38,133 bases of DNA from Firmicutes bacterium HGW-Firmicutes-4 (GTDB taxonomy: Bacteria; Bacillota; Clostridia; Eubacteriales; Eubacteriaceae): NCBI GenBank assembly GCA_002841405.1, contig PGZR01000016.1, positions 1-38,133 of the forward strand, written 5' to 3'. Each line of letters begins with the position of its first letter. Position 1 is the stretch's first letter. The notes beneath the pieces were generated by a model. That model did no database searches. It had not been told where the DNA came from and was given only the letters and a program-made list of their open reading frames with translations. The translations under genes were made by a program, and so were the position numbers. Shown here in pieces: positions 2,521-37,195 of the stretch.

Positions 2521-4212
2521 TTAAGGTCGCTCCACGTTTCCCGATACTTCACTTCCTTTTAACTTCACCTGAATCCGGATCCCTTCCATGCGGTAGCCCA
2601 AACCTTCAGTTCCAGCTATTTCTCCATTCTGGGCCCAATCCATCCAACCGATATTCTCGACATGAACCTGATAGTTTACATCAAAAAGATCGGCATCGGC
2701 CCCGGTTAACTCAATTTTAATCGCTTCCAGACGCAGTGATTCCCCCGTCGTGCCGCTTAATGCGCCATTTTCCACAAAATCCTGCCAGCCCTGATTCTCG
2801 ACATGGGTTTGATACCGAACCCCAATATCGTAGTTGTTGGCATTGACATTGAGTTCAATGGCTTCCAGACGCAGGGCCTCGCCCACGCTGCCACTGATTT
2901 CGCCATTGTTTACCAGCGCCTGCCAGCCGTTATTTTGAACTTGGGTACGATAGGCGGTCGTCATCACGGGATCTTTCGATATGACCTGGGCTAAGGCCTG
3001 ATCCAGTTGAATCAGGCCATAACCATAGTGATCGTCACGGCCTTGTTCACCCAGATCAATGGCCGTTTCTTTTAAAATCGCCTCGACCTCAGCCGCCGCA
3101 AGCGTCGGATCCGCTGCCATGAGAACCGCACCGGCGCCGGTCACAACCGGACATGAAAGAGAGGTCCCGGACTCGGTGATATAATCATCCTGAGCCCACA
3201 GGGTCGTGGTCTCAACACCTGGCGCGCACAGATCAACCTTTTCATTGTACTGGGAAAAATCAGCAATGACATTGTTACGATCCGTGGCCCCCACCGAGAT
3301 GACTCCGTCATAGGCCGAAGGAATCATCGTTTTTCCAGCATTTTCGGGATCGGCGCCATCATTTCCAGAAGCCGCTACCAAGATCTTTCCCGCGCCGGCG
3401 GCGTAGGCGATGGCCGCCTCCAGAACTGGCGAGACCTCATATCCCGCAAAGCTCATATTGATCGCCCGCACCTCGGGGCGATTGGCCGCATGATAAAGGG
3501 CGGCGCAGGCATAACCCAGGTTGGCCTCATTATCATCGGCCGTTTCACCCCCAATTCGGTACGGGGCGATTTTAATATCGGCGTTGCCGGCCACGCCGGC
3601 GATGCCAATCTCATTATTGGCAATCGCGGCAATACAGCCACTGATGGCGGTGCCATGGCCAACCACATCGATCGTCTCGGTTTGTCCGGTGACATAATCA
3701 TAACCATCGACAGACTGGCCGATGATATCCGGGTGGTTGCTGTTAAGACCGGTATCAAGAACCGCCACGACAACCGACTCTTGATTGTTGACCTGGTCCC
3801 AGGTCTGATCGGCGCCGACGCCTTCAAATTGCCAGGCTTGGGCTAGTTTGGGATCGTTTGGTAAGGTTGAAAATTTAAGGTAGGCATTTTTTTGTGCGGC
3901 CAGCACCCGGGGATTCTTTAACAGCTCAGCAACCAGTGCATCGGCCTGATCGCCATCCCTGACCTTGATCAAATCAACCTGATCATTTAGTTTTTCGCCG
4001 GCTTCGATTTGATTGGTCGTCAGCCCCAGATCTTTAATCGTGCCTTCATGTTGATAAATCACGACAATTTCGTCATCAATGTCCACATCATGATCCAAAC
4101 CCTCGACTTGATCATAACTCAGAATGCCTTGATTGGCGGCAACCGCCCCGATTGGTAAACCGCAAAGGATTATAATCACGATGAGCCCAATAATACGCTT
4201 CTTTAATTTCAT
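2521..4212 (-). CDS. Secreted subtilisin-like S8 serine protease with three C-terminal ChW repeats
   Basis: 563 residues. A signal peptide (about 1-26) precedes a propeptide-like region (about 30-120) and an S8 domain (about 125-415). The catalytic residues are Asp153 (VLDTG), His186 (GHGT), oxyanion Asn283 (ASGND) and Ser351 (SGTSLSCP), all intact. The C-terminus carries three ChW repeats of about 36-40 residues, starting near 421, 468 and 515, each with the form Y.(T/V)HVEN.GW...NG..(S/A)G..G...RLEAI. Family knowledge: ChW (clostridial hydrophobic with conserved W) modules occur on secreted clostridial proteins and are thought to mediate surface or polymer binding. The protein is probably exported and held on the cell surface or substrate. 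The next gene upstream encodes another ChW protein, so the two may act at the same place. ATG is preceded by an AGAAGG-like site. Confidence 0.95.
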   Translation of the reverse strand: MKLKKRIIGLIVIIILCGLPIGAVAANQGILSYDQVEGLDHDVDIDDEIVVIYQHEGTIKDLGLTTNQIEAGEKLNDQVDLIKVRDGDQADALVAELLKNPRVLAAQKNAYLKFSTLPNDPKLAQAWQFEGVGADQTWDQVNNQESVVVAVLDTGLNSNHPDIIGQSVDGYDYVTGQTETIDVVGHGTAISGCIAAIANNEIGIAGVAGNADIKIAPYRIGGETADDNEANLGYACAALYHAANRPEVRAINMSFAGYEVSPVLEAAIAYAAGAGKILVAASGNDGADPENAGKTMIPSAYDGVISVGATDRNNVIADFSQYNEKVDLCAPGVETTTLWAQDDYITESGTSLSCPVVTGAGAVLMAADPTLAAAEVEAILKETAIDLGEQGRDDHYGYGLIQLDQALAQVISKDPVMTTAYRTQVQNNGWQALVNNGEISGSVGEALRLEAIELNVNANNYDIGVRYQTHVENQGWQDFVENGALSGTTGESLRLEAIKIELTGADADLFDVNYQVHVENIGWMDWAQNGEIAGTEGLGYRMEGIRIQVKLKGSEVSGNVERP

Positions 4213-4635: not shown

Positions 4636-6105
4636 TTATACAGGAGCGACTACGGTACTCTGAATTAAAGTGACTGCTGTCTGAGTCAATAACCGACCAT
4701 TGATCGATGCTTGAGATCCCAGGCCGATGTTTGTTTTGCCCAGGACAATTCCTTCAAAATGTGAACCTGTTCCAATTGAAACGGTTTCCGAGGCCTGCCA
4801 GAATATATTTTTAGCCTGTACACCGCCAGCTAGAATAACCTTTGTGTCACTGGCTTGAGTGATTCCTTTGGCAATTTGGAAGATGAACACATCATTTGGA
4901 CCGCCACTCAGAGTAACATCCGAATTGATTAAAACATCGTTATCCCAATTGTAAACCCCTGGAGTCAGCGTTTGACCACTGATATCGCCAGTGAACTGGT
5001 TCGTATAATTAACCGCTCTGCCCGCCGCATCAACGTAGGCTGTTTCCATATCACTAACGGCAGTGGTAAGGTTAACACCGGTTGGCGCTGCGTAGTCTGA
5101 TGCGTATGCTTTGCCCGTAATTTGTGGGGAAGTCGCAAACACATTCGTGGCATCAGCCGTCAGCGAGAATCCTGTCATGGCCGCTGCCGCAATGGGGCTA
5201 ACGCCAATATCTCCGGTAATTGCAGAATCTGGCACCGTCGAAATACCTGTTTTGGCCAAGATCGCAAAATTAGCTGCTGTCCCCAGGTTAACAGGTTCAG
5301 TCACGATTGCACCTGGTGCGACAACGGTTACATCACAACTGGCGGTCTTGTTGCCATCGACAGTTGTGACCACGATTGTGGCAATGCCGGCACTCACAGC
5401 GGTAACGCTGCCGTTTTCATTGACGGTAGCAACGGCTGTGTTGTCGGATGACCAGGTGACGCTTTTATTGGTGGAATCCGCTGGTAAAACGGTTGCTGCC
5501 AGTGTTTGGGTCTCACCAACTGTAAGGTTGGCTGTTCCTTTATCCAGGCTTACCGATACCGGATTAATGACATCCTCTGTTTTGATGATTCTAATTTCCA
5601 TTGCTTCTAATCTTAAACCCAGTCCTCTGGTTCCTGCTAATGCGCCATCAGAAACCCATCCCTGAGTCCAACCCTGATTTTCAATATGAACCCGGTATTC
5701 TACGGAGTATCCAGGCATGTTGATCAGATTAATATTAACGGCTTCCAAACGTAAGCCCTGACCTTCAGTTCCGGCCAGTTCCCCATTTTTTCGAACGCTC
5801 TGGTCGCCCTGATTTTCCACATGGACATTATACTCAATCCTGGCCTCCGCCGGAGCATTAACCAGTTGAATTTTCAGAGCCTCCATACGAAGTCCCTGAC
5901 CTTCCGTACCAGACATTTCGCCATCAGAGACCCAGCCGGTCCACCCTTGATTTTGGACATGGGTTTGATATGTCACGCCAACGGGGCTGGCAGCCGCCGT
6001 GTTTCGCTGGTCTTCCTGTGCGAAAACGTTTCCAGCTAGAAAGAAATTGGCAATCAAAAGGAACGATGCTAATAACAAAGCTTGTGTTTTTTTGAAATTC
6101 TTCAT
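4636..6105 (-). CDS. Secreted ChW-repeat / Big2 / DUF3494 (ice-binding-like) protein
   Basis: 489 residues. A signal peptide (about 1-29, cleavage near VFAQ) is followed by three ChW repeats (about 43-80, 88-125 and 131-170), a bacterial Ig-like Big2 domain (about 180-265; typical VTWSSDN, GSVTAVSAG, GIATI) and a DUF3494 domain (about 272-485; typical NLGTAANFAILAKTGIS, ITGDIGVSP, GVYNWDN). Family knowledge: DUF3494 is the fold of bacterial ice-binding proteins and many adhesins of organisms that never meet ice, so an adhesive or surface role is more likely than antifreeze. In the second ChW repeat both Trp positions are replaced (NQGDQSVRKNG against NQGWTGWVSDG in repeat 1). No LPxTG or other anchor is visible. 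ATG is preceded by AAGGAG. Confidence 0.92.
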   Translation of the reverse strand: MKNFKKTQALLLASFLLIANFFLAGNVFAQEDQRNTAAASPVGVTYQTHVQNQGWTGWVSDGEMSGTEGQGLRMEALKIQLVNAPAEARIEYNVHVENQGDQSVRKNGELAGTEGQGLRLEAVNINLINMPGYSVEYRVHIENQGWTQGWVSDGALAGTRGLGLRLEAMEIRIIKTEDVINPVSVSLDKGTANLTVGETQTLAATVLPADSTNKSVTWSSDNTAVATVNENGSVTAVSAGIATIVVTTVDGNKTASCDVTVVAPGAIVTEPVNLGTAANFAILAKTGISTVPDSAITGDIGVSPIAAAAMTGFSLTADATNVFATSPQITGKAYASDYAAPTGVNLTTAVSDMETAYVDAAGRAVNYTNQFTGDISGQTLTPGVYNWDNDVLINSDVTLSGGPNDVFIFQIAKGITQASDTKVILAGGVQAKNIFWQASETVSIGTGSHFEGIVLGKTNIGLGSQASINGRLLTQTAVTLIQSTVVAPV

Positions 6106-23959: not shown

Positions 23960-24766
23960 TTATTCTTTTATTGATCCAATTTTACCTGCTCGGAAGGCCT
24001 TGCTGTATTTTCGGCAATGTTTGTCTTTACCTAGTAGTGCATAGGTAGCAAAAATTGTTCCCATCATGTCTCGGTTGAGTGGGTCAAGCACGGCAGAATC
24101 CATCCCTGCTTGAATCGCAAATGCCATGGCTGTTTTATTCAAAAGTGCACGAACTGGAAGTCCAAACGACATGTTGCTGATGGCCCCGGTTACGTGAATC
24201 GTTGGGTATAATTCCTTGATCATTGATATTTCTTTGGCAAAATTCAACATGGAGTTGTTTTCGGTTGATAGTGCCATTACGCAGGGATCAATATGAATAC
24301 GGTTCGCTGTGATGCCATGTTTAGCTGCTTTTTCAACCATACTTCTTGTGATATCTACCTTAGTCTGTACATCATTTGGGATTCCATTGTTATCACAAGT
24401 GAGGCCCACCACTTCCCAGGTATTTCCTTCCATAAGCGGTAGCAATACCTCGCATTTGTCACCTTCCTCCGAGATAGAATTCAACATCCCCGGTTTATTG
24501 GCATATTTAAACACTGCTTCAATTGCTCTTGGATTAGGACTATCAATACATAGCGGTGTATCTGTGGCATCCTGAACAACTTCAATAAGCCATCTAAGGG
24601 TTTCAATTTCATCTTCTGGGGATGTACTGGCGCAGACATCGATAAAACTAGCGCCTGCCTCAGCTTGTTTCACTGCTCGATCCGCAATAAATGCCACATC
24701 TCTATTTTCAATGGCATCTTTCACCGCTGGTATGCTACCGTTAATCTTCTCTCCAATTATTATCAT
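23960..24766 (-). CDS. Methyltetrahydrofolate:corrinoid methyltransferase (MtgA/MtvA type)
   Basis: 268 residues, a DHPS-like TIM barrel of the MeTr family. The N-terminus IIIGEKINGSIPAVKDAI is typical, followed by AGASFIDVCAST (pterin-site Asp), CIDSPNP, LNSISEEGDK, GLTCDNNGIP, RIHIDPCV and GAISNMSFGLP. In quaternary-amine demethylation this enzyme moves the methyl from methyl-Co(III)-corrinoid to tetrahydrofolate, feeding the methyl branch of the Wood-Ljungdahl pathway. It follows the corrinoid protein gene by 155 bases on the same strand and is divergent from the MttB-like gene, so the three form one pathway. The start is fixed by AGGAGG 8 bases before ATG. Confidence 0.92.
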   Translation of the reverse strand: MIIIGEKINGSIPAVKDAIENRDVAFIADRAVKQAEAGASFIDVCASTSPEDEIETLRWLIEVVQDATDTPLCIDSPNPRAIEAVFKYANKPGMLNSISEEGDKCEVLLPLMEGNTWEVVGLTCDNNGIPNDVQTKVDITRSMVEKAAKHGITANRIHIDPCVMALSTENNSMLNFAKEISMIKELYPTIHVTGAISNMSFGLPVRALLNKTAMAFAIQAGMDSAVLDPLNRDMMGTIFATYALLGKDKHCRKYSKAFRAGKIGSIKE

Positions 24767-24921
24767 ATTTTCGCCTCCTAGATTATTTTTTTTAATACTT
24801 ATCCAAAATCTCTCAACTCAAATTTATTCTGTTCTCATTTATATAAAAATGTTCTTCGCGGTTGTCTGTTTTCCCTAACTGAGTTTAGATACCTACTCTG
24901 CAAATTCAATCGCAGGAATAT

Positions 24922-25551
24922 TTATATCCATCCCTGACAAATTTTCACACCTTCTGCAGCGTTGGTTGTGAATCGATCTGCTCCCACATATTCACAGGTT
25001 TCTGCGGTTACAGGATTTCCGCCAATAATCACTTTGGCATCTATACCAGCTGCTTTAATAGCATCTACCGTTTCTTTCATAGAGTCAATAGCGAGGGTCA
25101 AAACCCCGCTCATCCCGATGATCTGAGGTTTGCATTCTTTCGCTTTTTCAACAAAGTTTTCTATTGCAACATCAATGCCTAAATCGATCACTTCAAAACC
25201 TGCCGCTTCTGCCATACTTTTGAAAATATTCTTTCCAATATCGTGTAAATCTCCATGAACAGTACCTGTAACAATAGTTCCTGCAACAACATTTTCCTGA
25301 TTTCCTAAAACAGGTTTCAAAACATTGATTGCTTCTGTTAATAATTCACCAGCAAAGATCAGATCACCAACAAAATAGTCACCTTTTTCAAATAGATCAC
25401 CAACGATCTCCATTCCACCCTGACATGCTATCACTGCTTCTTGGGCCTCTGCTTCTGACGGCTTAGTTTCTACAAATCCGTTGAGCATTTCCATTACTTC
25501 ATCTTCTTCTAAATCGCCAACCGCTTGAGTTAATTCTTTTAAATCCAACAT
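24922..25551 (-). CDS. Corrinoid protein (MttC/MtgC type)
   Basis: 209 residues. A B12-binding cap of four helices (about 1-85) precedes a Rossmann-like cobalamin domain (about 90-209). The lower-ligand motif is D101-L-H103-D-I-G106 (TVHGDLHDIGKN), with His103 as the axial cobalt ligand; S/T-L (MSGVLTLAIDSM) and GGNPV follow as expected. It shuttles the methyl group between the MttB-like enzyme and the methyltetrahydrofolate methyltransferase. It is the first gene of the leftward transcript, with a good promoter (25633-25661) and an inverted repeat in its leader. No reductive activator of the corrinoid (RamA or RACo type) lies in the window, so one must be supplied from elsewhere. Confidence 0.94.
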   Translation of the reverse strand: MLDLKELTQAVGDLEEDEVMEMLNGFVETKPSEAEAQEAVIACQGGMEIVGDLFEKGDYFVGDLIFAGELLTEAINVLKPVLGNQENVVAGTIVTGTVHGDLHDIGKNIFKSMAEAAGFEVIDLGIDVAIENFVEKAKECKPQIIGMSGVLTLAIDSMKETVDAIKAAGIDAKVIIGGNPVTAETCEYVGADRFTTNAAEGVKICQGWI

Positions 25552-25597
25552 TTTTTTACCATCCCTTTTTTAAATTTTAGTCCTTAAAGATAAATGC

Positions 25598-25622
25598 ACA
25601 TGTATATCTTGTGTGTACATGT
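25598..25622. promoter_or_regulatory. Inverted repeat in the leader of the corrinoid gene
   Basis: ACATGTA, 11 bases, TACATGT, starting about 11 bases after the -10 box. The symmetry and position fit an operator or a 5' leader structure. Confidence 0.45.
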
Positions 25623-25632
25623 TTGCAATCGT

Positions 25633-25661
25633 ATGATACACCCTTATTTATGCTTTGTCAA
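25633..25661 (-). promoter_or_regulatory. Sigma-70-type promoter of the corrinoid/methyltransferase transcript
   Basis: Leftward TTGACA (25656-25661), 17-base spacer, TATCAT (25633-25638). It lies 82 bases before the corrinoid start codon. This half of the module is therefore not obviously sigma-54 dependent. Confidence 0.78.
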
Positions 25662-25721
25662 GTAAACGATTCCATTTTTTAACTTCAAATTTTATCGCGC
25701 ACAATAGAGAATTCTTGTTTT

Positions 25722-25751
25722 GCACATATATCGTAAAAAAAAGATATATGC
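25722..25751. promoter_or_regulatory. Candidate upstream activator site for the sigma-54 activator
   Basis: GCACATATATC (25722-25732), 10 bases, GATATATGC (25743-25751): an inverted repeat with one bulge, 115-145 bases before the -24 box, the usual distance for enhancer sites of sigma-54 activators. Assignment rests on symmetry and spacing. Confidence 0.45.
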
Positions 25752-25867
25752 TATATTTGAAATAGACATTCGTATATTTCTACTGAAATATTTCGTAACT
25801 AGAATCAAAACAAAAGTTTTTGGGGTTAGTTAACGATGTTAAAGCCATTCTTCCTAATATTTATTTT

Positions 25868-25883
25868 TGGCACAATTATTGCT
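25868..25883 (+). promoter_or_regulatory. Sigma-54 (-24/-12) promoter of the MttB-like gene
   Basis: TGGCAC-AATTA-TTGCT matches the sigma-54 consensus TGGCACR-N4-TTGCW at every fixed position. It lies 50 bases before the ATG. A sigma-54 activator is encoded in the same cluster (30532-31932). Confidence 0.9.
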
Positions 25884-25932
25884 TTACATATCTCTATGAA
25901 TACAAAATTTTTTAAATCATGGAGGTTTAAAT

Positions 25933-27342
25933 ATGAAAAACAAAAACTACAGCAGTTTGTTCACGGGAAAAGAAGATGTCGCATTGATTCATGAAAAAAG
26001 CCTGTATCTGTTAGAAAACAAAGGTGTTTATTTTGAATCTGATGATGCCATTGAGCTCTTCAAACAACACGGCTGTCGTGTTGATGGCCGCATCGTATTT
26101 ATTAAACAAGATCTTCTTGAAAAAGCATTGAGTACGGTTCCAAGAACCTTTGATATGTATTCCAGAGGAAATAAGTTTACAGTAGGCATGAATGAAGCAC
26201 CGATGATGCAGTCCTCACTTGGCCCTGTTAATGTTGTTGACGCCGGGGTTTACCGTCGAGCGACTGATCAAGATTTTCTAAATTTTGTCAAACTTCATCA
26301 GACGAGCGAGATGATGGATCTCATCGATTGTGACATGATCGTTCCTAATAACATACCCCTGAAAAACCAGTTGGCATACACGACCCTTGCCACCCTGAAA
26401 TATTCGGATAAAATCATCGGCGGGCACAACGGGTCAAAAGAGCGTTGTGATACCTTCATTAGTCTCATGCAGGATTTCAATGATGACCACGAACATTGTC
26501 AAACCCTGACCCTAGCAACTAGCACCCCGCCTTTTGCCTGGAATAAGGAAATGTGTGCTACAATTTTTTCTTATGCGCAAAAAGGACAATGCCTCGTTAT
26601 TTCAGGTGTTGGTCTTCCTGGTATGACCTCTCCGCCATCCTTATCTGGTACTATTTTACAAAATAATGTTGAATTATTGGCCGGCATTGTTCTTACTCAA
26701 TTAATCAACCCTGGAAACCCAACTATATATCAGCTGACATCTCTGGAAAGCGATTTAAGATACTCACTTTGTGTTGCCGGCGGTGCTGAGACTGCACAAT
26801 CTTTCTTCACCATGGGTGAGTTGTCAAAATTCTATAATTTACCGTCCCGCGCCAATGGTTGTTTATCCGATGCCAAAAATGACGATTACCAAGCTGGTAT
26901 GGAATCGATGATGATCGCCCTTGCTGGGCGAATGGCTGAACCACAAATGGTTTATATGCTTAACGGTGTCTTAGACTCTTACGGAGCTCTCGGTTATGAA
27001 AAATTCATGCTTGACGAAGAAACAAATCGTATTGTAAAACATCTATTAAAAGGAACCACCGTCACCGAAGAACTGTTATTTATGGATAAACTGAAAAATG
27101 TTGAGCATAAAACCAATTACATCGCGCGTACACACAAAGCATATAAAGCTGATTTTTACTTACCGGCACTCTCAAATCGTCAATCTATTAGCAACTGGCA
27201 AAAATCCGGAAGCCCAAGTGTTCAGGAAAATGCCACGAAAGCCTGGAAAAAGCGTGTTGAAGAGTATACCTTGCCAACAAAACTTGAACCATTCCAAGAA
27301 AAACTCATTAAAGACTCAATTCCTAATGAATTTATGTTTTAA
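25933..27342 (+). CDS. MttB-superfamily quaternary-amine methyltransferase (non-pyrrolysine)
   Basis: 469 residues, a TIM-barrel of the trimethylamine methyltransferase superfamily. Recognisable parts are HEKSLYLLENKGVYFES, SLGPVNVVDAGVYRRAT near residues 95-115, LKYSDKIIGGHNGS and the glycine-rich SRANGCLSDAK. The frame has no internal UAG, so this is the non-pyrrolysine branch that includes glycine-betaine (MtgB), proline-betaine (MtpB), carnitine (MtcB) and gamma-butyrobetaine (MtyB) enzymes. It should take a methyl from a quaternary amine and place it on Co(I)-corrinoid. The substrate cannot be fixed by eye. The gene is driven by a sigma-54 promoter and followed by MFS and BCCT transporters, so import and demethylation are coupled. 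The start has GGAGG 8 bases upstream. Confidence 0.92.
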   Translation: MKNKNYSSLFTGKEDVALIHEKSLYLLENKGVYFESDDAIELFKQHGCRVDGRIVFIKQDLLEKALSTVPRTFDMYSRGNKFTVGMNEAPMMQSSLGPVNVVDAGVYRRATDQDFLNFVKLHQTSEMMDLIDCDMIVPNNIPLKNQLAYTTLATLKYSDKIIGGHNGSKERCDTFISLMQDFNDDHEHCQTLTLATSTPPFAWNKEMCATIFSYAQKGQCLVISGVGLPGMTSPPSLSGTILQNNVELLAGIVLTQLINPGNPTIYQLTSLESDLRYSLCVAGGAETAQSFFTMGELSKFYNLPSRANGCLSDAKNDDYQAGMESMMIALAGRMAEPQMVYMLNGVLDSYGALGYEKFMLDEETNRIVKHLLKGTTVTEELLFMDKLKNVEHKTNYIARTHKAYKADFYLPALSNRQSISNWQKSGSPSVQENATKAWKKRVEEYTLPTKLEPFQEKLIKDSIPNEFMF

Positions 27343-27415
27343 TTATCTCCCTCTTTTCTATATAAACGCATTAAATTATATAATAGTTTTTTTTGCTCAT
27401 ATAAAATTAATTAAC

Positions 27416-27449
27416 TGACAGAGCCTTTAATAATTCAAAGGCTCTGTCA
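27416..27449 (+). repeat. Perfect 13-bp intercistronic hairpin
   Basis: TGACAGAGCCTTT and AAAGGCTCTGTCA enclose an 8-base loop between the MttB-like and MFS genes. No T run follows, so it is not a standard terminator. It could stabilise the upstream mRNA end or lower expression of the transporter relative to the enzyme. Confidence 0.6.
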
Positions 27450-27469
27450 TAAAAGAAAGGATGTGCCCC

Positions 27470-28750
27470 ATGAATAATCAAGTGGTTCCTGGATCGGAGC
27501 TTAGTAAGCTCCGTATTCTCTTAATTGTCGCTCTCGTAAGTTTTGGTTCTTCTGTTCTTTTCCAAATTATTTACTTACGTTTTGTTTTTTACCAACCCAT
27601 TATCGAAGCCCTCAGTATTACCAATACTCAATTAGGTGCTTTGGGTGGCGTTTATGGAATGGTTGCAACGATTTGCTACCTCCCCGGAGGAATTATTGCA
27701 GACAAAATGCGTGCAAAATATTTAGCAAGTGGGGGTTTTATTTCCACTGCCCTTGTTACCTTCTGGTTTGCTTTGCTTCCATCCTATAATAGTTTACTGA
27801 TCATTTTTGGGCTTTTTGGTGCTACCAGTGTTCTTATTTTCTGGGGTATTCGCTACAAGCTGGTACGCCTGGTGAGCTCTGAAAAATCTTATCCTAAAAA
27901 CATCGGTTTAAGCTATGGTATTTATGGTTTAGCCGGACTAGTGCTTAATTTTATTGCTTTAAAGGTCTTTGAATTCTCCGGCACCGATGCCGCAGCAGGT
28001 CTAGTCACCATACTAATCATTAGCGCCATTCTAAACCTCATTTTTGGTGTAGCAACCTTGTTCATTGTTCCAAAATTTGATGATGAAATTAAAGTCAATA
28101 CATCTTTTAATATCAATGAATTTGTTGAAGCCATTAAGCATCCGGGTGTTTGGCTGACCACAGCTTCCATGTTTTTTGTCTATGGTGCTTATGCCGCTTT
28201 AACTTACACCACACCATATTTAACGGAAATATTTGGTGCTTCTCTAGCCCTTGTTTCCATTATCAGTATGATTCGCACCTATGGTATTTCATTGTTTTCA
28301 GCCCCAATTATTGGTGGCATTGCCACAAAAATAAATTCCCCGGCCAAGGTGCTTGTTCTAATCATGGCATTGACTGCCATCAGTGGAGTTATTCTAGCAT
28401 TTCTGCCAACCACTCAAGCCATGCTTATCGTTGCAATTATCGTTGTTCTTGTAGCCGGCTTTTTCACCAGCGGCGCTTATGGAATAGCCTCATCACAATT
28501 TACGGAATCCGGTGTTCCGACACGAATTTTTGGTACAGCAACTGGAATTCTATCGGTTATTGCGTTTCTTCCTGACATGTTTGTTTATCCAATGGCCGGA
28601 AAATGGCTTGACCAAAATCCAGGCCTTACCGGATATCAATATATCTTCTATTTTATCATTGCCTTCTCACTCGCCGCGGTTTTTTGCTCTCTAGCAATTC
28701 GGATCTATGCTCAAAAGAAAGTCAACCTTGTAGAAGCCGATGGAATTTAA
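27470..28750 (+). CDS. MFS transporter of the quaternary-amine module
   Basis: 426 residues with about 12 membrane helices. An MFS motif A variant is seen after TM2 (GGIIADKMRAKYLASGG). The sequence resembles the organic-anion/sugar-acid MFS groups rather than drug exporters. It lies 128 bases after the MttB-like gene with no promoter in between, only the hairpin, so it is likely on the sigma-54 transcript. Its job may be substrate uptake or release of the demethylated product. ATG at 27470 was chosen because AAAGGA lies 8 bases before it; the ATG three codons earlier overlaps that site. Confidence 0.88.
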   Translation: MNNQVVPGSELSKLRILLIVALVSFGSSVLFQIIYLRFVFYQPIIEALSITNTQLGALGGVYGMVATICYLPGGIIADKMRAKYLASGGFISTALVTFWFALLPSYNSLLIIFGLFGATSVLIFWGIRYKLVRLVSSEKSYPKNIGLSYGIYGLAGLVLNFIALKVFEFSGTDAAAGLVTILIISAILNLIFGVATLFIVPKFDDEIKVNTSFNINEFVEAIKHPGVWLTTASMFFVYGAYAALTYTTPYLTEIFGASLALVSIISMIRTYGISLFSAPIIGGIATKINSPAKVLVLIMALTAISGVILAFLPTTQAMLIVAIIVVLVAGFFTSGAYGIASSQFTESGVPTRIFGTATGILSVIAFLPDMFVYPMAGKWLDQNPGLTGYQYIFYFIIAFSLAAVFCSLAIRIYAQKKVNLVEADGI

Positions 28751-28771
28751 TCTCCATCATTAGGTATTCTT

Positions 28772-28815
28772 ACTTCAAGCTGATCGCTTCAGCTTGAAGT
28801 AGTTTTATTTTTTAA
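28772..28815 (+). terminator. Terminator after the MFS gene
   Basis: ACTTCAAGCTGA and TCAGCTTGAAGT form a 12-bp stem (28772-28800), then AGTTTTATTTTTT. It ends the sigma-54 transcript and separates it from the BCCT gene. Confidence 0.85.
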
Positions 28816-28826
28816 ATAAATTTATA

Positions 28827-28855
28827 TTTACAGTAAAACAATAGTACTCTATTAT
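28827..28855 (+). promoter_or_regulatory. Promoter of the BCCT transporter gene
   Basis: TTTACA (28827-28832), 17-base spacer, TATTAT (28850-28855), 48 bases before the ATG. The transporter thus appears to be expressed independently of sigma-54. Confidence 0.6.
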
Positions 28856-28902
28856 AAGTATCGTAACTCCTTTTCATATTTCTATCGGAGGTGAATGTTA
28901 TC

Positions 28903-30465
28903 ATGAAAAAGAAAACGAAATCACTTGATCAAATAAACGATAATACCTACGATGTCAAAATTGATAAACCCATTTACATCGGGTCGTTAATTACAATTCT
29001 TATTGTGTGCGGTTATTGTATTATCTTTCCAGACTCAGCCTTAGTCATTGTTGACATTGCGCGTTCTTTTGTTATTACAAAATTTGACTGGTTTTTCTTA
29101 ACCATTGGGATTATGATTCTATCCGTTTCAGTTTTTTTAGGTGTGAGCTCTTACGGCAAAATCAAATTATCGGATAAGGATGAAAAACCCGAGTTCAGTT
29201 ATTGGAGCTGGCTCTTTATGATTTATTTTTCAGCCATCGGTTCTTCAACTCTCATGTGGGCTATTTGCGAACCTCTGGCCTATCTTATTAAACCACCCTT
29301 CGGATATGAGCCATTCTCTGCTCAAGCCTACCAAATTGCTATTCCCTATGGTCTTTTTCATTGGGGGCCCATTGCCTGGTCATTTTTCGCATTTTCAGGA
29401 CTCGTAGTTTCTTACTGTTTTTACAAACGCAAGAAAAAACGGCTTCAGCTGTCCAGTGTGCTATCTGATGTTATCGGAGAAAAACAAGCCAATGGGCCAT
29501 TGGGCAAACTAATTGACATTGCCTCAGTTTTCTTTACTTTCTGCACTTTTGGTCCAAGCCTTGGTTTTGGCGTTCCGGTACTGACAAAGCTTATCAGCAA
29601 TGTGACCGGTTTGCCGGCCAATGATTTTTTGCAAATCTCAGTCCTGGTGATCTGGACCTTAATATTCACCGTCAGTGTTTATAGAGGTCTGAATAAGGGC
29701 ATTAAAGTTCTTAGCGATATCAACATGTGGCTTCTCGGAGCCCTTTTAATTCTGGTATTTCTAGTTTCAGATCCACTGTATATTTTAAAAAGCATCGTCG
29801 AACAATTCGGAACCTTTGTTGCCTATTTCATTCCTATGGCTACATACACCGATACCATGTCCGGCGGCACCTTTGCCCAGGACTGGACCGTTTTCTATTG
29901 GAGTTGGTGGATGGTTGAAATCCCCTTTATGTCCATCTTTATAGCCCGGGTTTCTAAAGGACGAACCATCCGAGAGCTGCTTTTCGGCATCATCGGTGCC
30001 GGTTCCATTGGAACCATGTCTGTCTTTTGGGTCCTTGGAAATTTCTCGCTCAAGCTCCAGTCCTCAGGCGCTCTGGATTTAGCCGACATCTATAATAAGC
30101 AGGGTCCCACTGAAGCTGTTGTCCAAACCATTAATGCCTTGCCCTTTGGCAATATCATATCAATCGTGATGATCCTGCTCTATTTTGTGTTTTTGGCAAC
30201 CTGCATCGATTCCGGTTCCTTTACCATGGGATGCATCGCTTCAAAAGATATTTTAGACGGCCAGCAACCCAGCAAAATAAATCGTGCCACCTGGGCAGTC
30301 ACCATTGCGCTTATTGGGATTGCAGTTCTCCGTCTCGGAGGCGGTCTTCAAGCCATTCAAACGATTGTTATTATTGTCGGTTTGCCCTCAGCTTTTTTAT
30401 TAATTCTCTTAGGCTGGTCACTTTTTAATTGGCTCAAAGAAGATTATCCAAAAATCACCTTATAA
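28903..30465 (+). CDS. BCCT-family transporter, CaiT-like, with altered substrate site
   Basis: 521 residues with about 12 membrane helices. The family signature is seen at 327-358: DWTVFYWSWWMVEIPF, then MSIFIARVSKGRTIRE. Trp154 and Trp159 (FHWGPIAW) match the paired TM4 Trp of CaiT (142/147) in spacing. Met343 in MSIF corresponds to CaiT Met331, which replaces a sodium ion; this suggests sodium-independent exchange rather than BetP-type symport. Glu339 stands where CaiT has Tyr327 and BetP Trp377, an aromatic substrate-site residue. The Gly-Met-Gly motif of sodium-coupled members is absent (IGSSTLMWAICEPL). Alignments are from memory. Probable role: uptake of the module's quaternary amine in exchange for its demethylated product. 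ATG at 28903 was chosen over GTG at 28891, which abuts the GGAG. Confidence 0.93.
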   Translation: MKKKTKSLDQINDNTYDVKIDKPIYIGSLITILIVCGYCIIFPDSALVIVDIARSFVITKFDWFFLTIGIMILSVSVFLGVSSYGKIKLSDKDEKPEFSYWSWLFMIYFSAIGSSTLMWAICEPLAYLIKPPFGYEPFSAQAYQIAIPYGLFHWGPIAWSFFAFSGLVVSYCFYKRKKKRLQLSSVLSDVIGEKQANGPLGKLIDIASVFFTFCTFGPSLGFGVPVLTKLISNVTGLPANDFLQISVLVIWTLIFTVSVYRGLNKGIKVLSDINMWLLGALLILVFLVSDPLYILKSIVEQFGTFVAYFIPMATYTDTMSGGTFAQDWTVFYWSWWMVEIPFMSIFIARVSKGRTIRELLFGIIGAGSIGTMSVFWVLGNFSLKLQSSGALDLADIYNKQGPTEAVVQTINALPFGNIISIVMILLYFVFLATCIDSGSFTMGCIASKDILDGQQPSKINRATWAVTIALIGIAVLRLGGGLQAIQTIVIIVGLPSAFLLILLGWSLFNWLKEDYPKITL

Positions 30466-30496
30466 AAAAAGCAGCCTGAAATTCGGGCTGCTTTTT
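30464..30496. terminator. Bidirectional terminator between convergent BCCT and activator genes
   Basis: AAAAAGCAGCC and GGCTGCTTTTT (30466-30495) with an 8-base loop give T runs in both directions. Confidence 0.9.
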
Positions 30497-30531
30497 AACG
30501 ATTCATTTAAATGGTTTCCCCATCTGCATTC

Positions 30532-31932
30532 CTATTTAATATCTTTACAAAATTCACTGACGAGACGAAACGCCTTTGAATGGCTGATATCCAAATCTTC
30601 TGCCACTTTTTTCATGCTTTTATGTTTTTTATATGACTCCCTAATCAAATGTTTCCCAACACTTTCCAGAATATAGTCATAACTTTCTTTATAAGTTTCC
30701 TCTACCATGGTAATCCCTTCCACAATAAATTCAGGAAGATCCCTAGCTTGAATCGGTCCGCCAGTAGAGAGAAGAACAGTTCTTTCAATGATATTTTTCA
30801 ATTGGCGAATATTCCCCGGCCAATCATATCCGATAAAAATAGCAACGACCTTGGGCGAAAATTCAATTTTCTTATTATATTTTTTATTATATTTTTTTAA
30901 AAAATATGACATCAAGGGAAGAATATCCTCTCGACGCTCACTTAAAGACGGAATTCGTATATTTATTGTGTTAATTCTCCAAAATAAATCAGCGCGAAAC
31001 TTCTTATCAGCTACAAGCTTTTCAAGATTTGCATTTGTAGCCGCGACAATACGTATATCCACATACTTCATTTCGTTTCCGCCAACAGGAATAAAACGTT
31101 TGTTTTCTAAAACATCCAATAACTTTGCTTGGAGGCTTGGGGCAAGTTCACCTATTTCATCTAAAAACAATGTCCCTTTGTCAGCCAGTTCAATTAGCCC
31201 AACCTTGCCCTTGGCGCTTGCCCCGGTAAACGCATGCGGGGCATAACCAAACAATTCTGATTCCAAGAGGTTTTCTGGAATTGCAGCACAATTTATAGCC
31301 CAGAATGCCTTATCTGCTCGATTGCTGATTTTATGAACATATTCCGCCACCAAAGTTTTTCCCACACCTGAATCACCAGTTAATAATATCGGTACATCTG
31401 ATTTTGCAACCCGTTTAAGTGTGATTAAAATCTTGCAGAAAATATAGCTCTGACCGACAATTTCATCGCCAGATTCATCTATTTCGAGAGTCATTATATG
31501 TTTTTTCGACACAATTGGTTCAATTTTTCGCCACGTCAGATCATAATCGATAGGTGGTTCATTAGCAATAGCAACCACCATTTCGATTTCATTATTTTCA
31601 TCTAAAATCGGTGTCAATACTGTCGAAATATTTTTGCCAATCAAAAGATAGTTTTGTTCAACAAAAATTGTCCGTTTCTCTTTCATGCACAAATCGAGTG
31701 CCGAAGGGGTCCATTTTCCCTTGCGAAAAGACTCACTATCCTGACCAACCATTTCTTTGGGGTTAACGCCATAATGTCTTAAAGAATTGGGGTTTGCATA
31801 CATAATTTTTTTGTTTTTATCTGTAACATAAATATCCGAAAAGCAGTTCTCTAAAATTTTTATATATACTTCTTTTGGAAGCGAATGAAGGTACTCCATA
31901 TATTCTTTATCATGGTCAAAGCTATTTTTCAT
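30532..31932 (-). CDS. PAS / AAA+ sigma-54-dependent transcriptional activator
   Basis: 466 residues. A PAS domain (about 20-130: DIYVTDKNKKIMYANPNSL) precedes the AAA+ sigma-54 interaction domain (about 160-395) and a C-terminal helix-turn-helix (about 438-460: SMKKVAEDLDISHSKAFRLV). Walker A is GDSGVGKT at 186-193 and Walker B GTLFLDEI at 253-260. The sigma-54 contact loop reads HAFTGA at 233-238, a G-to-H variant of GAFTGA. The WPGNIRQL motif is present. With a full sigma-54 promoter in front of the MttB-like gene and no other activator in the window, this is the obvious regulator. The PAS domain probably senses the amine or its product directly, because no kinase or receiver domain is present. 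Confidence 0.95.
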   Translation of the reverse strand: MKNSFDHDKEYMEYLHSLPKEVYIKILENCFSDIYVTDKNKKIMYANPNSLRHYGVNPKEMVGQDSESFRKGKWTPSALDLCMKEKRTIFVEQNYLLIGKNISTVLTPILDENNEIEMVVAIANEPPIDYDLTWRKIEPIVSKKHIMTLEIDESGDEIVGQSYIFCKILITLKRVAKSDVPILLTGDSGVGKTLVAEYVHKISNRADKAFWAINCAAIPENLLESELFGYAPHAFTGASAKGKVGLIELADKGTLFLDEIGELAPSLQAKLLDVLENKRFIPVGGNEMKYVDIRIVAATNANLEKLVADKKFRADLFWRINTINIRIPSLSERREDILPLMSYFLKKYNKKYNKKIEFSPKVVAIFIGYDWPGNIRQLKNIIERTVLLSTGGPIQARDLPEFIVEGITMVEETYKESYDYILESVGKHLIRESYKKHKSMKKVAEDLDISHSKAFRLVSEFCKDIK

Positions 31933-32116: not shown

Positions 32117-32746
32117 TTATACCAATCGTTTCAATCCGGCCGCGTCAAAAAGACGGTTGACCAGATCCGAACCGATCCCGATGACGGTTTCCTCATGGGT
32201 GAAATCGGTGATTTTTTCATCGAAAAGAATGGTGGCCTGGGCGGGCAGTTCATCGTCGCCATCCCAAAATAGAAACCGGATGGGCATACAGACAAAGGCC
32301 ATTGCCTGAAAGCCGGCGTCTGAATTTGATAACCGTTCAAACCCCAGTTTTTCTGCGGCTGTAATTAATTGCTGGGTTTTACCTTCAAATTTTTTGGCAA
32401 AAGGAGTCAGGGTCGATTTTTTAAATGCCGGGCTAAACGGCGCCGCACCCCGGAGCTCGTGGAGGGGAATGAAATTACCGGAATTTTTCGGTGCTTCTTT
32501 AGAGAAATGAAATAAGTGGTAGATCGCTGATTGGGTATAAAAATCTAGTTCTTCTGCCGGTTGATCAACCCGGATAATGCTAGCGTCGCTACGGTTAATT
32601 TGGTAGTCCACGCCAAAATAAGTAATCGGCAAATTATTGTCATTATATCCGGGCAGTCCCAGAGCAGCATAACGTTCTTCGTAATCAAACTCCAGCGCCT
32701 TTAATCGCCAATATTCACATACTTTTTTGTAATTATCTAGTTCCAT
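32117..32746 (-). CDS. DUF3786 domain protein
   Basis: 209 residues, one DUF3786 domain. The characteristic C-terminal part is present: MPIRFLFWDGDDELPAQAT, then ILFDEKITDFTHEETVIGIG. Family knowledge: DUF3786 proteins are common in acetogens and other anaerobes with corrinoid metabolism, often near corrinoid methyltransferase genes, but have no proven function. The gene sits beside the demethylation cluster, though with its own upstream region. No signal peptide or membrane helix is seen. It may be an accessory factor of corrinoid or C1 metabolism; this is inference. Confidence 0.88.
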   Translation of the reverse strand: MELDNYKKVCEYWRLKALEFDYEERYAALGLPGYNDNNLPITYFGVDYQINRSDASIIRVDQPAEELDFYTQSAIYHLFHFSKEAPKNSGNFIPLHELRGAAPFSPAFKKSTLTPFAKKFEGKTQQLITAAEKLGFERLSNSDAGFQAMAFVCMPIRFLFWDGDDELPAQATILFDEKITDFTHEETVIGIGSDLVNRLFDAAGLKRLV

Positions 32747-35149: not shown

Positions 35150-36670
35150 TTATTTAAGCAATATCTTATTGACCGCATTAATCAGCGCCAGGGCACTGGC
35201 CCGCATCACATCCTGTTCAATGGCCTTCCCCGCGAACAACTGGCCATCACAGCGAATCTGGGCTGTTACCTTGCCCAGACTGCCTTTGCCCCGGCTTAAG
35301 CTGTTAATCCGATAATCGATGAGTTCGATGGGCGCCCCGACGGCTTCCATAATGGCCCCATAAAGAGCATCGATGACGCCGGAGCCGCTGTGGCTGATCA
35401 CCACCACTTGCTCACCTCGGGCCAGCTTTACCGTCGCTGCAGGCAAACCGCTGGTCACATTCAACTCATAATCGAGCAACTGCCATAATTCTGGGCTATC
35501 ACCGCAGCTGGGGACGCCACTGTTTTTCAACAGCGTCAGCACATCATTATCATAGATTTCTTTGTTGTCATCGGCCATGGTCAAAAACTGCTGATAGATT
35601 TCTGCCACCGATTCCGCGGGGATATCAAAGCCCAGACGCTGAGTGACATGTATAAAAGCATGCCGACCGGATCTGGCGGTAAGAACAATTTCCATTGCCG
35701 GCGCCCCGATGGTTTCCGGATCCATAATTTCATAAACATCCTTTGATTTAAGCAGCCCATCCTGATGGATCCCCGAGGAATGGGCAAAGGCATTTTCCCC
35801 AGTGATGGCCTTGTTCACCTGAAGATCCAGCCCCATGGTGGCACTGACCATCCGGGAGGTTTCATAGATTTTCCGGGTATCCACCGTGGTATGTCCGCTA
35901 TAATAAGCTTCATGCAGTTGAATTCCCATAACCACTTCTTCCAGCGCGGTGTTCCCGGCCCGCTCCCCAATGCCGTTGATGGTACACTCCACCTTATCCG
36001 CTCCGTTTTTAACCGCGGCCAGGGTATTAGCGGTAGCCAGACCGGTGTCATTATGACAGTGAACGCTGAGCATCACTTTGGGGTCCAGATTTTTCAGCCG
36101 GTCATTGATGCGGTAAATCAGCTTCCCAAATTGTTCAGGAATGGCAAAGCCCACGGTATCCGGCACATTAATGATGGTTGCACCGGCCTTAACTACGGCT
36201 TCAATGGTTTGCCAGAGATATTCAAACTCCGAACGGCTGGCATCTTCCAGGGAATACTGAACCTGGGGCAATAGACTGCTGGCATATTTAACCGCGCCGA
36301 CCCCCATTTGAATAACCTGCTCCGGTGTTTTCCTGAATTTCTTGGCGACGTGCACATCCGATGAGCCTAAAACAATATGAATCAGTGGATTTTCGGCCGC
36401 CCGGATGCTCTCATAAATACAGTCTATATCCGCTTGGACCGCCCGACCCAGGGCCGCAATCCAGACGTCCTTGCCAATTTTGCGACTGATCGCCCGAACG
36501 GCCTCAAAATCCCCCTGTGAAGACGAAGGGAAGCCCACCTCCATCATATCGACCTTCATTTTGGCAATCTGCTCAGCCACCTCCAGCTTCTCAGCCAGAT
36601 TCAGTTTGGCGCCCGGTACCTGTTCACCATCTCTTAAGGTGGTATCGAAGACATAAATTTTTCGTGACAT
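35150..36670 (-). CDS. leuA: 2-isopropylmalate synthase
   Basis: 506 residues, full length. The HMGL-like barrel starts with [17 protein letters not shown] (Arg13-Asp14), and the metal ligands are in [14 protein letters not shown]. The GIGERAGN motif follows, then the C-terminal LeuA dimer (leucine feedback) domain from about residue 385. It condenses 2-oxoisovalerate with acetyl-CoA, the first step of leucine synthesis. Expression is governed by a T-box leader with a CUC (Leu) specifier. No leuBCD follows within the window. The start has AAAAGGAGAG 5 bases upstream. Confidence 0.95.
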
Positions 36671-36923: not shown

Positions 36924-37195
36924 AAAAAAACGTCTGTCTCAAACGAGACAGACGTAAAATCTGCTATACCACTCTATTTTATACAAGTCTTCAATACGGG
37001 TTTAATAAAACCGATATCCATCCCCTGTAACGGTGGGCTTCCGTCTTAACCTACTTTTTCACTGATCCTGTCAGCACTATTTCAGCAAGAAACTCCGAGG
37101 TGAGTTCATTATCTTCTGATTTCTGCTTCACACCACCCAGCAGATCTCTGAAAATCATCGAATAACTACTATTCCTCATCAACGTCTTTTTTATA
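36924..37195 (-). promoter_or_regulatory. First T-box riboswitch module of leuA, Leu (CUC) specifier
   Basis: Read leftward from about 37195: Stem I with GATGAGGAATAGTAG, CTGGGTGGTGTGAAGCAG and the specifier region GAA-CTC-ACCTCGGAG (codon CTC at 37102-37104), then Stem III (CGGTTT and AAACCCG arms), the T-box TAGAGTGGTATAGCAG (36961-36976, a variant of the usual GGTACCGCG) and a perfect terminator ACGTCTGTCTC and GAGACAGACGT with a T7 run (36924-36955). CUC encodes leucine, matching LeuA. The codon call is by eye from the conserved context. Confidence 0.88.

Follow-up and report, generated by a model that had tools for sequence, protein, structure and literature searches.

Results

Gene content of the locus

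We analysed a putative demethylation locus in a stretch of 38,133 nucleotides (the window; PGZR01000016.1) from Firmicutes bacterium HGW-Firmicutes-4, which is an Acetobacterium closely related to A. bakii. Its draft genome of 3.73 Mb is split into 225 contigs, of which the window is contig 179. The original prediction, made from the letters of the window, had named six genes here as a quaternary-amine demethylation module under sigma-54 control, and profile matches agreed with it on the places and families of all six. The central gene (25933–27342, plus strand) encodes a methyltransferase I of 469 aa from the MttB superfamily (MTTB PF06253, 287.3 bits; cut-off 25). It is a nonpyrrolysine relative, as had been claimed: the open reading frame (ORF) has no internal stop and hence no UAG, and Leu311 of the protein aligns opposite pyrrolysine 334 of the trimethylamine methyltransferase 7XCL. 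On the same strand follow genes for an MFS transporter of 429 aa (27461–28750; MFS_1 PF07690, 76.8 bits) and a BCCT transporter of 524 aa when read from a GTG (28891–30465; PF02028, 452.2 bits); for the latter, an ATG at 28903 behind AGGTG, read by eye, is the likelier start. The minus strand carries the gene of a sigma-54 activator of 466 aa with PAS, AAA+ and helix-turn-helix domains (30532–31932; Sigma54_activat PF00158, 210.2 bits). Its PAS domain is the weaker match, with PAS_9 (23.4 bits; cut-off 27) and PAS_4 (21.4 bits; cut-off 23.1) both below their cut-offs.

Divergent from the MttB-like gene, the minus strand encodes a corrinoid (cobalamin-binding) protein of 209 aa (24922–25551; B12-binding PF02310, 84.3 bits; B12-binding_2 PF02607, 51.3 bits), in which the DxHxxG motif reads DLHDIG, and a methyltransferase II of 268 aa (23960–24766; Pterin_bind PF00809, 72.2 bits; NCBIfam PRK07535, 347.1 bits, cut-off 259). 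The latter is a methylcorrinoid:tetrahydrofolate methyltransferase (MeTr) of the MtgA/MtqA type by function. Methyltransferase I, corrinoid protein and methyltransferase II are thus all encoded at the locus. That the corrinoid protein and MeTr work with the MttB-like protein is suggested by their adjacency, which is itself not conserved.

Placement of the MttB-like protein

The MttB-like protein is 92% identical, over its full length, to a protein of A. bakii DSM 8239. Matches at E ≤ 1e-85 were present in 11 of the 67 genomes of the order. Clade A, to which the window protein belongs, has eight members with 65–92% identity in eight of these genomes: the window genome (G000), A. bakii (G001), the Eubacterium genomes G042–G046, with E. 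callanderi FD as G042 and E. limosum as G043, and G020. Clade B, at 49–52% identity, was found in 9 of the 67 genomes (G001, G004, G007, G020, G024 and G042–G045). Of the 19 Acetobacterium genomes, two have clade A and three have clade B, and clade A is present in all five Eubacterium genomes searched. A sample of 391 genomes of the class, with at most four candidates scored per genome, gave five with a match at E ≤ 1e-110, all from the same order. A gene of E. callanderi with 37% identity was rejected as the counterpart, as the same genome holds an orthologue at 66% and the pattern scan behind the proposal was insensitive.

We compared the window protein with four reference enzymes, MtgB (9YCE/2QNE), MtcB, MtyB and MthB. 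E. limosum ATCC 8486 has 42 MttB genes according to passages of PMC8604678 and PMC12155760, and G043 gave 42 PF06253 matches. MtcB was located in G043 by an mtcB primer given in PMC10223405, which matches without mismatch, and by a second primer that matches inside the gene. The MtyB candidate is the mutual best match of MtcB (52.7%), and its gene adjoins one for an MFS transporter and a divergent one for an activator; according to PMC8604678, no two MttB proteins of E. limosum are more alike than MtcB and MtyB, at 53%. Against the label, the pair ranks 26th of the 861 G043 pairs by bits, so that MtyB is presumed here from the mutual best match and the gene context. MthB was labelled by a context described in PMC12155760, namely an EamA gene between the MttB gene and the MeTr and corrinoid genes, with a divergent kinase gene.

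Two trees were built, one of 97 rows that included all 42 E. limosum MttB genes and one of 45 rows with bootstraps; MttB ORFs below 420 aa and some MttB places (among them G004:C1, G020:C45, G007:C52 and C153) were left out. Clade A forms a single clade with clade B as its sister in both; in the 45-row tree the support for clade A is bootstrap 100 and SH-like approximate likelihood ratio test (SH-aLRT) 99, and that for the sister grouping is 100/99. The identities of the window protein to the references are low: 31.8% to MtgB, 31.5% to MtyB, 31.0% to MtcB and 30.3% to MthB. The approximately unbiased (AU) test rejected joining clade A with MtgB (p 6.5e-91), with MtcB/MtyB (7.3e-49) and with MthB (0.0057), the last of which sits on a long branch.

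The window genome contains eight PF06253 matches, two of them neighbouring fragments on C95; there (G000:C95:21427-22742), two adjoining open frames jointly resemble one MttB gene, which points to a broken gene or an assembly error. Among the matches are a separate MtgB (69% to 9YCE; G000:C13:8618 region) and a separate MtyB orthologue (76%; G000:C88:8454 region), and those two jobs are therefore taken. From these orthologues, the host is predicted to use glycine betaine and gamma-butyrobetaine; the tree holds no MtcB row for the window genome. The PAS activator of the MtyB orthologue is 82% identical to that of the MtyB cassette of A. bakii.

The MttB-like protein might instead be a drifted orthologue of the known glycine betaine, carnitine, gamma-butyrobetaine or phosphocholine enzyme, as it shares their superfamily, is 30–32% identical to each of them and lies in a neighbourhood similar to those of mtcB and mtyB. 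The tree and the AU tests argue against this, as do the MtgB and MtyB orthologues already in the genome and the lack of an mthK-like kinase gene among the scanned proteins of the window cluster. We give the idea little credence, and at the level of sequence it is already refuted as orthology.

The substrate pocket

Docking has put glycine betaine in MtgB near Y94, N199, R309, H345 and F353, as described in PMC6855144. With the numbering of 9YCE shifted by one, so that all five docked residue letters agree, the counterparts in the window protein are L96, T196, R306, M342 and Y350. Met342 is present in all 17 rows of clades A and B and in one other of the 97 rows. The equivalent residue is His in 57 of the 97 rows, including all 14 rows of MtgB, MtcB and MtyB, where it is proposed to bind the carboxylate, and Gln in MthB. 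Clade A differs from clade B at 36 fixed positions. From the docking and the alignment we predict that the clade A pocket should bind its substrate differently.

The main way in which clade A could be already known is as the proline betaine system. In that case the E. limosum orthologue (G043:C1:636572 onward, 471 aa) would be MtpB, whose sequence or locus did not turn up in the literature searched, which gave citations, kinetics and substrate statements only, and both enzyme and substrate would already be published. Passages of PMC8604678 report that E. limosum makes MtpB on proline betaine. Three of the 42 E. limosum MttB genes are placed and the clade A orthologue is one of the 39 others, and the clade A pocket, being less polar than that of MtgB, might suit a ring betaine. 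On the other hand, we found nothing tying clade A to MtpB, and 38 other genes, including the clade B gene G043:C1:1173896, are also candidates. We hold the identity with MtpB to be rather unlikely.

Promoter and transcription layout

A sigma-54 (−24/−12) promoter, TGGCACAATTATTGCT, lies at 25868–25883 on the plus strand and starts 65 nt before the MttB-like gene. It is the only exact match to TGGCACN5TTGCW in the 38 kb, where about 0.04 would be expected by hand calculation. Matches with up to two mismatches numbered 14 in the window against 21.2 expected, and therefore the exact match alone carries weight. All eight members of clade A have a site of this kind, with one mismatch at most, before the MttB gene; the first pass gave seven, and the eighth (G046), exact and at 65 nt, appeared after an over-long ORF start had been corrected by alignment. 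When up to three mismatches were allowed with GG and GC kept, no site was detected within 400 nt of the starts of the MeTr, corrinoid, MFS, activator and DUF3786 genes, and one three-mismatch match was found before the BCCT gene. The claim of a full-consensus promoter solely in front of the MttB-like gene was thus borne out, as was sigma-54 control in general, since the site, one RpoN and the AAA+ activator are all encoded in the genome.

In E. limosum, sites with no more than one mismatch lie within 300 nt upstream of 8 of the 42 MttB genes (three of the sites being exact), compared with 4 of 237 unclassified ORFs of the same regions, many of which are not genes. Among the eight are mtcB and mtyB, both preceded by full-consensus sites. 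The control scheme is therefore common to the carnitine and gamma-butyrobetaine cassettes and not unique to clade A. Literature that treats sigma-54, MttB and enhancer binding protein jointly was searched for in this wording only, and none turned up.

The transcripts appear to be several. An 11-bp RNA hairpin without a U-run lies between the MttB and MFS genes (27418–27447, plus strand; −15.9 kcal/mol, z −4.77); it is absent from the terminator scan list and is possibly an mRNA stabiliser or a partial attenuator. Downstream of the MFS gene, a strong intrinsic terminator with a 14-bp stem and a U-run (28770–28802, plus strand; −20.4 kcal/mol, z −7.81) parts it from the BCCT gene. A hairpin in the gap where the BCCT and activator genes converge (30466–30496; −20.5 kcal/mol, z −6.73) is likewise absent from the scan list and is likely a bidirectional terminator. 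Upstream of the corrinoid and MeTr genes, the sigma-70-like site TTGACA-17-TATCAT (25633–25661, minus strand) agrees with the consensus at 11 of 12 positions, although the region has no more sites of this type than shuffles lead one to expect (29 against 28.9). This layout suggests that sigma-54 switches the MttB-like gene, perhaps with the MFS gene, and that the transporter, the sensor and the methyl-transfer pair would be made independently.

Several candidates for an activator-binding site were discarded. TTTC..GAAA repeats and TCGTAA upstream were rejected because shared k-mers do not exceed shuffles, and TTTCGTAA occurs twice in the window against 1.4 expected. Between the divergent corrinoid and MttB genes, an 8-bp inverted repeat, CATATATC-N10-GATATATG (25725–25750; z −2.28), is a possible operator.

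A decayed or silent locus is extremely improbable. Nothing positive speaks for it, beyond the draft state of the genome with its 225 contigs, and all frames are open, the promoter is intact and the likeness to the A. bakii protein extends over the full length.

Conservation of the neighbouring genes

Orthologues of the activator lie beside or near the clade A MttB gene in five other genomes. The PAS domain is 73–96% identical in all five clade A orthologues compared and 33–48% identical in all nine activators of clade B, MtcB and MtyB cassettes; G046, with no activator within 20 kb, and G044, where the stretch did not reach one, were left out of the comparison. The best NCBIfam model for the activator is PrdR, at 333.6 bits and far below the cut-off of 795, and a PrdR-like role, with proline as the implied compound, was rejected on this ground. 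Just upstream of the activator gene, a DUF3786 protein is encoded on the same strand (32117–32746, minus strand; 151.9 bits).

The MFS transporter is kept in A. bakii (93%) and in the five Eubacterium genomes (63–68%), with merely 26% identity in G020, and we propose that it may export the demethylated product. A BCCT gene stands beside the MttB gene in all seven relatives fetched, and its product is of the window type in A. bakii (95%) and in G045 and G020 (75%). In A. bakii, an MtyB-type (75%) cassette of activator, MttB, MFS and BCCT genes is nested between the BCCT and activator genes of the clade A cassette (L009:12729-18742); E. limosum has other MttB genes at the equivalent place.

The nearest solved relative of the window BCCT is DddT (344.6 bits; CaiT 287, BetP 207). 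DddT is matched more closely still by the BCCT of the MtyB cassette in A. bakii (442.4 bits) and by two further BCCTs from other cassettes (432.0 and 361.0 bits), and therefore no substrate follows from the match; dimethylsulfoniopropionate (DMSP) as a substrate deduced from it is unsupported. In five genomes, the second BCCT of the clade B cassettes (L110:13463-14980) shares 63–67% identity with the BCCT of the MtyB cassette in A. bakii (L009:17219-18742). For the first BCCT of these cassettes, the single one tested has CaiT as its closest match, and clade B may use a carnitine-like substrate.

Acetogens can demethylate DMSP. The substrate of the window enzyme might be no acidic quaternary amine at all, but a sulfonium such as DMSP or an N-methylated heterocycle, bound in a pocket where Met342 replaces the carboxylate-binding His. 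The Met/His split between clades A and B and the MtgB, MtcB and MtyB rows speaks for it, as would DddT as the nearest solved BCCT, were that match not unspecific. Moreover, MthB also lacks the His and yet takes a quaternary amine, and the list of pocket residues derives from docking. We consider such a substrate improbable.

The corrinoid and MeTr genes are not conserved as a pair beside the MttB gene. A MeTr homologue is near the MttB gene in one of eight clade A neighbourhoods, that of the window; none was detected in the stretches fetched around the other seven members (blastp, E ≤ 1e-4 or 1e-5). A corrinoid gene is near the clade A MttB gene in G046 (39%) and, beyond the activator gene, in A. 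bakii (86%), and the corrinoid protein has a match at E ≤ 1e-40 in all 19 Acetobacterium genomes. The clade B cassettes of G004 and G007 carry a pair of the window type (corrinoid protein 76–78%, MeTr 86–87%), and so does a third kind of MttB cassette in G005, with MeTr 86–91% identical to that of the window across the three genomes. The pair therefore appears to travel between cassettes. The original prediction had described a closed six-gene pathway; in view of the single MeTr neighbourhood and the strong terminator between the MFS and BCCT genes, this description does not hold, and the closure would be local.

Elsewhere in the window, a T-box leader (36941–37191, minus strand; 114.2 bits) lies upstream of a 2-isopropylmalate synthase gene (35150–36670). 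The minus strand also encodes a subtilase-family peptidase with ChW repeats (2521–4212) and a protein that combines ChW repeats with a Big_2 and an ice-binding-like domain (4636–6105; 223.8 bits). A. bakii is cold-tolerant.

Discussion

The closest known systems in organization are the MtcB and MtyB cassettes of E. limosum, which share with the window a nonpyrrolysine MttB protein, an adjoining MFS gene, a PAS/AAA+ activator nearby and a full-consensus sigma-54 site. The MFS gene beside mtcB and mtyB and the divergent activator are published, as passages of PMC8604678 state, and with sigma-54 sites before both genes the locus can no longer be called an undescribed system. The similar layout had also made identity with MtcB or MtyB conceivable, which sequence comparison rejected once mtcB had been located in G043 through the published primers. 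The window protein is about 31% identical to both, has Met342 instead of His, and comes with its own activator (PAS domain 39–40%) and a BCCT in the core. It also has corrinoid and MeTr genes adjoining, whereas MtcB and MtyB of E. limosum use the shared MtqC and MtqA encoded elsewhere, according to PMC8604678.

The likeness to the other systems is more partial. MtgB (9YCE/2QNE) has the superfamily, the expected fold and chemistry and the Arg309 position in common with the window protein, but is 32% identical, is kept apart from clade A by the AU test and has a separate representative in the window genome. The phosphocholine system of E. limosum (MthB, MthC, MthA and MthK) likewise encodes methyltransferase I, corrinoid protein and MeTr together; it differs in the sequence of MthB (30% identity) and in having the MthK kinase and an EamA transporter instead of BCCT and MFS, and no sigma-54 site with up to two mismatches precedes E. 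limosum mthB. MtpB, the proline betaine enzyme, comes from E. limosum, a species that also holds a clade A orthologue. The clade B cassettes, from the sister clade with about 50% identity, resemble the window in the Met at position 342 and a nearby activator. Those of G001, G004, G007, G020 and G024 differ by two BCCTs and the lack of an MFS gene beside the MttB gene, and the sigma-54 sites of clade B are weaker or not found (one mismatch in 3 of 9, two in 3 of 9, none found in 3 of 9).

We think that the locus probably encodes a methyltransferase system which is induced by its substrate, a single betaine-like quaternary amine other than glycine betaine, L-carnitine, gamma-butyrobetaine and phosphocholine. 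This reading builds on what was observed directly, that is, the gene families, the promoter and its conservation, the clade placement and the co-conservation of the activator; from these we infer the chemical class of the substrate and every enzymatic, sensing and transport step. The amine would enter through the BCCT, and the PAS domain of the activator would sense it or a product. The activator could then drive RpoN polymerase at 25868–25883 into the MttB-like gene and, through the hairpin, the MFS gene. From the amine, the MttB-like protein would transfer one methyl group to a corrinoid protein in the Co(I) state, probably the one encoded divergently beside it. MeTr would pass the methyl group to tetrahydrofolate and hence to the Wood-Ljungdahl pathway, and the MFS transporter would export the demethylated amine.

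Several observations weigh against this reading. Of the five docked residues only Arg309 is kept, with Phe353 replaced by Tyr, so that even a carboxylated betaine is not sure. The BCCT is of another type in G042, G043, G044 and G046, which weakens it as a clue to the substrate, and the corrinoid and MeTr genes stand together beside the MttB gene in the window genome alone among the eight clade A genomes. No common activator-binding site emerged, as the k-mers shared upstream by four divergent members were not above shuffles (14 six-mers against a mean of 10.1, three seven-mers against 1.9, no eight-mers). Finally, the placement of clade A is relative to four labelled enzymes, MtgB, MtcB, MtyB and MthB, and not to MtpB. 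Of the placement that the original prediction had envisaged among the named enzymes, the separation from MtgB, MtcB and MtyB, and from MthB besides, held by tree and AU test; the part concerning MtpB was outside the comparison.

A bolder proposal covers both clades. Clades A and B would take a methyl group from a donor bound unlike the known acidic quaternary amines, for instance a sulfonium such as DMSP, an N-methylated heterocycle or a bulky betaine. A Met-lined pocket would replace the carboxylate-binding His, and each clade would have its own PAS-gated sigma-54 switch. We put this forward as a speculation that is quite unlikely to be right.

Taken as a betaine-like system, the cluster very probably lets its host use the methyl groups of such a compound, and it would be a known kind of system on a branch that appears separate from the four known enzymes and has an altered pocket. 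By the count of PMC12155760, the physiological substrate had been identified for just six members of the MttB superfamily, and an mtcB deletion has been made in E. limosum, as passages of PMC10223405 describe. Because the clade is conserved, the sensor has a conserved PAS domain and an orthologue exists in the species in which this deletion was done, a single round of growth, proteome and deletion experiments should be enough to find the substrate. Demethylation of a betaine in such a system would give rise to no trimethylamine, which would be of interest for gut health.

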